Shown: positions 24,741-35,050 of the stretch, piece after piece
How the letters are laid out: every line of letters starts with the position of its first letter
How positions within the stretch are numbered: the stretch's first letter is position 1
DNA from: an uncultured Fusobacteriaceae bacterium
GTDB lineage: Bacteria; Fusobacteriota; Fusobacteriia; Fusobacteriales; Fusobacteriaceae
Direction: 5' to 3'
Length of the DNA: 39,948 nucleotides
Assembly: GCA_947038515.1 (NCBI GenBank)
Contig: CAMQWJ010000016.1
Location: 1 to 39,948 of the forward strand
Translations under genes and position numbers: made by a program
Notes under the pieces: generated by a model
Database searches by the model: none
Seen by the model: the letters and a program-made list of their open reading frames with translations, nothing else
Told to the model about the DNA's origin: nothing

Positions 24741-24785
24741 TAAGGAGGACAATGCTAAGACGAAGTCTTATCATTAAAAAATATG
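24741..24785 (+). promoter_or_regulatory. nifU initiation region: Shine-Dalgarno, hairpin, AUG
   Basis: TAAGGAGG (24741-24748) is 34 nt from the nifU ATG (24783), too far for normal initiation. Between them is a hairpin (24751-24775): AATG/CATT, one C·T mismatch, then TAAGAC/GTCTTA around a GAA loop. With the hairpin folded, 2 nt before and 7 nt after it leave a 9-nt gap. A decoy ATG (24752) lies in the stem, 3 nt from GGAGG, and would open a 24-codon frame. Confidence 0.7.
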
Positions 24786-25151
24786 GAGTATACAGAAAAA
24801 GTTATGGAACATTTTATGGCACCTAAAAATGTAGGTGTTATTGAAAACCCTTCTGGTTATGGTAAAGTAGGCAATGCCAGTTGTGGTGATATTATGGAAC
24901 TTTATATTAAAGTAGAAAACAATATTATTACAGATGTAAAATTTAGAACTTTCGGTTGTGCTTCTGCAATTGCCTCATCATCGGTTTCAACTGAATTAAT
25001 TCTTGGTAAGACTATTGATGAAGCTCTAAAACTTACAAATAAAGCAGTTGTTGAAGAGCTCGGTGGTTTACCACCAGTAAAGATACACTGTTCTGTTTTA
25101 GCAGAAGAAGCTATCAAACTGGCAATTGAAGACTATTTAAGTAAAAAATAG
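24783..25151 (+). CDS. nifU: NifU/IscU-type Fe-S cluster scaffold
   Basis: Scaffold on which NifS builds clusters before transfer. The three ligand cysteines C34 (NASCGD), C59 (FGCASAIASS) and C103 (KIHCSVLAEEA) are intact, as is D36. At 122 residues it is the single-domain IscU-like form without the extra NifU domains. The N-terminus MEYTEKVMEHFMAPKNVG matches the family, so the ATG at 24783 is the true start despite the distant ribosome site (see 24741). A terminator follows. Confidence 0.95.
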   Translation: MEYTEKVMEHFMAPKNVGVIENPSGYGKVGNASCGDIMELYIKVENNIITDVKFRTFGCASAIASSSVSTELILGKTIDEALKLTNKAVVEELGGLPPVKIHCSVLAEEAIKLAIEDYLSKK

Positions 25152-34063: not shown

Positions 34064-34104
34064 TATAACACACGTGAATTATTACTTTTATGCTACAATA
34101 CCAA

Positions 34105-34141
34105 GGAGGATATAAGTTTTGACTTATATAAAACTAAAATG
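34105..34141 (+). promoter_or_regulatory. psd initiation region: Shine-Dalgarno, hairpin, AUG
   Basis: GGAGG (34105-34109) is 29 nt from the psd ATG (34139). The intervening sequence begins with a perfect 8-bp hairpin, ATATAAGT (34110-34117), TTTG loop, ACTTATAT (34122-34129), directly abutting the GGAGG. When it folds, 9 nt (34130-34138) remain before the ATG. A TTG within the loop opens only a 7-codon frame that ends over the ATG. The layout repeats that of nifU with an unrelated hairpin sequence. Confidence 0.72.
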
Positions 34142-35050
34142 ACCTTTAAGCCAATAAAATATCTCGAAAGAAAAACAGGGGAAGAAAAACAAGAATATGT
34201 CCCTGGTGAAAAATATTTGAAGTTTCTTTATTATTCACCATTAGGAAAATTAACCCTAGAAAGTATTGTTAAAAGAAAGTGTTTAACCTCTTACTATGGT
34301 AGACAAATGGACAGCTATTCCTCATGTGAAAAAATAAAAGAATTTATATCTAATAATAATATCAATATGAATGAAGCACTTAATTCTATTGAAGAGTATC
34401 AATCTTTCAATGAATTTTTTATTAGAAAGTTAAAAAATGATTCTAGACCCATTGCTGGTGATGACACTACATTGGTTTCCCCTGCTGATGGAAAAATCTT
34501 TGCATTTGAAAATTTATCAGAAATAAAAGATTTTTTTGTGAAAGGTGAAAATTTTACATTGTCTGAGTTTTTAAAAGATGATAATTTAGCAAAAAAATAT
34601 GAAAACGGTTCTATGATAATAATCCGATTAGCACCTGTAGACTACCATCGTTTACATTTTCCTACATCTGGTATTATTGGAGCTTCTAAACAAATAAAAG
34701 GATACTATTATTCCGTTTCAACTCATGCAATTAGGAAAAACTTTAGAATTTTTTGTGAAAATAAAAGGGAATATTCTATCTTAAAAAGTGATAATTTTGG
34801 AAATATATTAATCTCAGAAATTGCTGCTACAATGGTTGGTGGTATTACTCAGCTATATATTCCCAATACAAAGATTGAAAAAGGAGAGGAAAAAGGATAT
34901 TTCTCTTTTGGTGGCTCAACTACAATTCTTTTGTTTGAAAAAGATAGTATTGAAATAGACAAAGATCTAATAGAAAATAGTAGAAAAAACTTAGAAACAA
35001 AAGTATATATGGGAGAAAAAATTGGAGCAATCAAAAAAAAGACTTTCTAA
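34139..35050 (+). CDS. psd: Phosphatidylserine decarboxylase
   Basis: Makes phosphatidylethanolamine from phosphatidylserine at the inner membrane; a pyruvoyl enzyme formed by self-cleavage. The cleavage motif is GGST (residues 258-261; S260 becomes the pyruvoyl group), and D117 (SPADG) and H170 (DYHRLH) belong to the self-processing triad. At 303 residues it is the long bacterial type. The N-terminal IKYLERKTGEEK...GEKYLKFLYYSPLGK segment fits the family, confirming the ATG. The pncB gene lies 75 nt upstream and a NusG-II protein gene 30 nt downstream. Confidence 0.95.
   Translation: MTFKPIKYLERKTGEEKQEYVPGEKYLKFLYYSPLGKLTLESIVKRKCLTSYYGRQMDSYSSCEKIKEFISNNNINMNEALNSIEEYQSFNEFFIRKLKNDSRPIAGDDTTLVSPADGKIFAFENLSEIKDFFVKGENFTLSEFLKDDNLAKKYENGSMIIIRLAPVDYHRLHFPTSGIIGASKQIKGYYYSVSTHAIRKNFRIFCENKREYSILKSDNFGNILISEIAATMVGGITQLYIPNTKIEKGEEKGYFSFGGSTTILLFEKDSIEIDKDLIENSRKNLETKVYMGEKIGAIKKKTF

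Follow-up and report, generated by a model that had tools for sequence, protein, structure and literature searches.

Hairpins between the Shine-Dalgarno sequence and the start codon in Fusobacteriaceae, and their likeness to the ends of IS110-family elements

The psd and nifU leaders

The forward strand of contig CAMQWJ010000016.1 (GenBank assembly GCA_947038515.1; 39,948 nt, hereafter the window) from an uncultured Fusobacteriaceae bacterium carries the psd gene for phosphatidylserine decarboxylase, in front of which a hairpin lies between the Shine-Dalgarno (SD) sequence and the start codon, and a nifU-like scaffold gene with a comparable leader (Table 1). An earlier note on this DNA had described the psd leader as GGAGG, an adjoining perfect 8-bp hairpin, 9 nt and the ATG, with a linear distance of 29 nt, and every part of this description was confirmed from the sequence. 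A gap of 29 nt is too far for an SD to serve the ATG directly, and a search of the spacer between hairpin and ATG (34130-34138) for a second SD found none; with the stem looped out, the effective spacing would be 9 nt, inside the range of approximately 5-11 nt that we set for a split ribosome-binding site. The start codon at 34139 is sound, because 30 Fusobacteriaceae psd orthologs begin at the same position and because the list of open reading frames (ORFs) holds no in-frame ATG, GTG or TTG upstream of it, so that the upstream in-frame start raised in the earlier note is absent. A frameshift or a misplaced start was ruled out, as the orthologs use the same ATG. None of these 30 orthologs has a hairpin of the psd type, and most have an ordinary SD near the ATG.

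The nifU stem comprises 11 positions, one of them a C-U mismatch, and begins 2 nt after GGAGG. The same 9-nt effective spacing had been proposed for both genes; this holds for psd, whereas nifU has 7 nt and reaches 9 nt only when the two outermost A-U pairs are excluded from the stem. The nifU orthologs examined show an ordinary SD without a hairpin.

Table 1. Features of the psd and nifU leaders in the window.
Feature	Position	Strand	Basis or remark
psd GGAGG, sole SD sequence of psd	34105..34109	+	read from sequence
psd hairpin ATATAAGT-TTTG-ACTTATAT, 8 perfect pairs, adjoins SD (arms 34110-34117 and 34122-34129, loop 34118-34121)	34110..34129	+	sequence, fold, model R1 rank 1
psd hairpin-to-ATG spacer AAAACTAAA, 9 nt, A-rich	34130..34138	+	length equals family mode of 8-9 nt
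psd, phosphatidylserine decarboxylase, ATG 34139-34141	34139..35050	+	PF02666, E 3e-59; start aligned in 30 orthologs
Possible mini-ORF TTG ACT TAT ATA AAA CTA AAA TGA	34119..34142	+	TGA overlaps psd ATG (ATGA); rival reading
nifU GGAGG	24744..24748	+	sequence
nifU hairpin AATGCTAAGAC-GAA-GTCTTATCATT, 10 pairs and 1 mismatch	24751..24775	+	model R1 rank 2 in window
nifU-like scaffold gene, ATG 24783, 7 nt past hairpin	24783..25151	+	PF01592, E 2.3e-48

A family of SD-linked hairpins in Fusobacteriaceae

The scanned portion of this genome amounted to 840 kb (47%), in stretches, and in it GGAGG followed by a perfect stem of at least 8 bp and an ORF-starting ATG was observed six times, against 0.25 with shuffled spacers and a maximum of two in 100 shuffles; for stems of at least 7 bp the count was eight against 1.03. 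The arms ATGATA/TATCAT were common to many of these elements. Across 61 related genomes the pattern GGAGG..ATGATA..TATCAT gave 34 matches, eight of them in this genome, versus four, none of them here, when the 3′ arm was scrambled. In a control of the arm sequence itself, ATGATA yielded six hairpins in the SD slot, and the other 59 permutations yielded two at most each (median 0).

A covariance model, R1, was built from 22 elements with psd and nifU excluded. Of the 61 Fusobacteriaceae genomes, 36 gave matches to it, and this genome alone contributed 16 hits; none of 14 Clostridium and flavobacterial control genomes matched, and Rfam at its gathering score gave no match in eight loci that hold an element. 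Within the window psd ranked first (21.5 bits, E 0.014) and nifU second (16.5 bits, E 0.18). The two hairpins had been called unrelated, a label that is doubtful because this single model matches both.

The results also showed covariation in the stem. Among 65 matches in an alignment fitted to the model, 94.2% of pair cells were standard versus 85.1% after shuffling, and double changes numbered 48 versus an expected 11.5 ± 2.8, a level reached in 0 of 500 shuffles; when partners were slid against each other as controls the signal was lost (10 double changes at most). G-U cells numbered 25 and A-C cells 9. A plain pattern search agreed with these counts, in that ATGGTA/TATCAT was common and ATGATA/TACCAT occurred three times among the matches listed. 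In addition, the element is kept before YfcC at orthologous loci in genomes G006 and G018 with a compensatory change. Compensatory changes, a check proposed in the earlier note, were found in the family stem and between YfcC orthologs.

The layout of the family is AAGGAGG, 0-4 nt, a stem whose outer arms resemble GUAUGAUA/UAUCAUAC, a variable loop, 6-13 nt and the AUG. The distance from SD to ATG varies from 28 to 48 nt across 53 elements; the distance from hairpin to ATG nevertheless peaks at 8-9 nt (30 of the 53, range 6-13), which a looped-out hairpin would predict, and the proposed 9-nt spacing is accordingly within the mode and no constant. A DNA operator for a transcription factor was rejected, as the spacing of the half-sites varies (loops of 3-20 nt) and the position relative to SD and ATG is fixed. 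Most elements carry an ATG in the 5′ arm, 2-4 nt past GGAGG, that is masked by the CAT of the 3′ arm and could act as a decoy start once the stem opens. A repeated GGAGGATTATGATATTTTTATCAT was seen at L208 (genome G052) and in matches in G044 and G060, which belong to another family of the order, and the device may therefore reach beyond Fusobacteriaceae.

The genes that carry the element, as named from their translations, include rsmH, dnaB, aroC, fabH, hldD, thiD, kdsC, lepB and a CDP-alcohol phosphatidyltransferase gene, and also secD and tpiA; AroC, ThiD, HldD, FabZ and TpiA have their usual start codons. Since these genes are unrelated, there is no obvious regulon, and a phospholipid regulon (psd, CDP-alcohol phosphatidyltransferase, lepB) was rejected once the unrelated genes appeared. 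At rsmH (L189, G000 C8) the ATG of the 5′ arm shares the reading frame of the gene, so that two starts are possible (320 versus 311 aa). At L298 (G000 C4:23424-23455) a long GTATGATA hairpin stands without SD or start codon and is perhaps a terminator. The class of SD with hairpin in Fusobacteriaceae is real, and the proposal of a recurrent initiation device is borne out by the excess over shuffled spacers, the further cases in the genome and the compensatory changes.

IS110-family elements at SD sequences

Identical units of SD and hairpin before unrelated genes in genomes G073 and G025 are the ends of IS110-family elements, and such a unit forms the terminal sequence of these elements in G073 (three copies), G006, G018 and G025. 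The three copies in G073 agree over ~1.55 kb and terminate in GGAGG, the hairpin and ATACAAG. Seven copies, in G073, G006 and G018, have AGGAG at the end of their left flank. Rejoining the two flanks yields an SD close to a start codon, the weakest of the seven cases being the third insertion site in G073; the insertion core appears to be AG (in AGG-AG). A second IS110 clade, found in G036 and also in G027 and G069, lacks the SD and hairpin. This clade uses the AG 3 nt earlier, and its insertion therefore leaves a native AAGGAGG beside the gene. At L324, L340, L346, L321, L317 and L337, elements of this second clade stand directly at gene SDs, and guide-like segments match the bases after AGGAG.

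A conserved segment at the left ends of the IS110 elements includes a guide-like stretch matching their own targets, namely TAGGAG in G073, AAGGAG in G006 and G018, and AGGAGGAGA and AGGAGTGA in two elements of the second clade; this segment is a predicted bridge RNA. Solo copies are identical to element ends over ~44 nt, both within G018 (L353 compared with L338) and between genomes (L307 of G077 compared with the element of G025). Searches of open-access papers turned up no account of IS110 elements directed at SD sequences.

Interpretation and comparison with known systems

We favor, as reasonably probable, the explanation that psd has a split ribosome-binding site like those of T4 genes 25 and 38, and that such sites spread as the ends of IS110 elements or as their scars. 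According to this model, 16S rRNA would pair with GGAGG at 34105, the hairpin at 34110-34129 would fold in the mRNA and be looped out, and the ATG would then stand at an effective distance of 9 nt. The psd leader would be a solo member of the Fusobacteriaceae family, and the family would be the terminal sequence of one IS110 clade that its putative bridge RNA guides into SDs (core AG). Insertion would cut the gene off from its own SD, the element end would bring a new one, and the hairpin would correct the distance of this new SD to the ATG, probably letting the target gene remain translatable. A deletion running from the target SD to the element-borne SD would leave the solo unit. We infer this deletion route, as well as looping-out and translation in this organism; the covariation lends indirect support to a need for the stem in efficient initiation. 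That the psd and nifU hairpins descend from IS110 ends is suggested by likeness and by the solo copies elsewhere, since this genome has neither IS110 nor a Y1 transposase. The broader proposition is that an IS110 clade is guided by RNA into SDs, that its end carries a replacement SD and a hairpin that resets the spacing, making insertion nearly silent, and that solo ends have given many Fusobacteriaceae housekeeping genes, psd and nifU included, hairpin-split ribosome-binding sites; to this we would give about an even chance.

Several points weigh against this explanation. This genome has no IS110 gene, though its count of elements is the highest, and the Y1 (PF01797) transposase is absent from genomes G000 and G001. 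The hairpins of this genome are diverse and few have the AG core after the stem; that of psd resembles the IS110 ends in stem and layout only, lacks the outer GTATG/CATAC and has a modest R1 score. The pair counts were taken on an alignment fitted to the model. Lastly, an extended -10-like TGCTACAAT lies at 34091-34099, just upstream of the psd SD, and could place the transcription start 6-8 nt further on, at or inside the SD, so that the whole leader would be carried only by read-through from pncB.

The alternative that survives best, although we consider it unlikely, is a native RNA device of the host, either the target of an RNA-binding protein or an AU stem that melts with heat, which was gained gene by gene and later adopted as the end of one IS110 clade. 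It would suit the presence of at least 16 elements in a genome without IS110, the conservation of the GUAUGAUA/UAUCAUAC stem base while loops vary, and the persistence of the element at the YfcC loci, but it sits poorly with the unrelatedness of the genes (rsmH, dnaB, aroC, fabH, kdsC, lepB, secD, tpiA), with the lack of the hairpin in every psd and nifU ortholog examined, and with the identity of solo copies and element ends. The suggestion of a class of regulated starts, made in the earlier note, is not supported, for similar reasons: the housekeeping genes are mixed, the psd and nifU orthologs lack the hairpin, and the structure is that of IS110 ends in SDs. The interpretation given there is thus partly supported overall, and the evidence favors dispersal by a mobile element over a regulon.

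It is improbable that the psd hairpin is a chance AT-rich palindrome outside the family. The hairpin by itself is of modest stability (-4.1 kcal/mol), the fold of the 51-nt leader (-6.0, z -1.45) was equaled by 18 of 200 shuffles, and taken alone the psd stem could be due to chance; against this, it adjoins GGAGG exactly and stands 9 nt from the ATG as family members do, it is the top R1 match in the window, and 0.25 such stems were expected in 840 kb. Less probable still is a leader mini-ORF, in which GGAGG would serve TTG 34119 (9 nt away in psd, with the TGA overlapping the psd ATG) or ATG 24752 (nifU), the main gene would be translated by coupling and the hairpin would be incidental: although an ATG lies close to the SD in 40 of 53 elements, usually within the 5′ arm, the frames of these inner starts are evenly spread (19/15/13), for which reason coupling was rejected as a family feature, just 10 of 53 stop no more than 4 nt from where the gene begins, no inner start is present in 6 of 53, and the paired double changes are left unexplained.

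To our knowledge, hairpin-split ribosome-binding sites have been described mainly for two T4 genes. Here, dozens of candidate sites of this kind are present in cellular genomes, along with natural compensatory variants, and they suggest that a mobile element could target the SD, among the commonest of bacterial motifs, yet leave the gene unsilenced. In genome annotation, the true ribosome-binding site can be a remote GGAGG accompanied by a stem. The family shares with REP/RAYT systems short dispersed palindromes with a fixed foot motif, whereas here an SD serves as the foot motif and keeps a fixed distance to a start codon; identity with REP/RAYT or IS200/IS605 elements was rejected, as neither G000 nor G001 has a Y1 transposase. 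In T4 genes 38 and 25, a hairpin between SD and AUG shortens the distance from 22 to 5 nt and from 27 to 11 nt, respectively, and mutations that destabilize it lower initiation (PMC3014915). The likeness lies in a hairpin that restores a working distance within the gap from SD to AUG; the difference is that those are two phage genes, whereas the present family is dispersed over chromosomes, shares a stem sequence and also occurs on IS110 ends. IS621, a member of the IS110 family, has a bridge RNA with a guide segment matching its target and targets REP palindromes (PMC11208160). The elements described here resemble it in the DEDD transposase, the long non-coding left end, the guide-like segment that matches the target, the dinucleotide core and the site-specific insertion; unlike IS621, with its REP palindromes, they enter SDs, and one clade ends in an outward-facing SD and hairpin.
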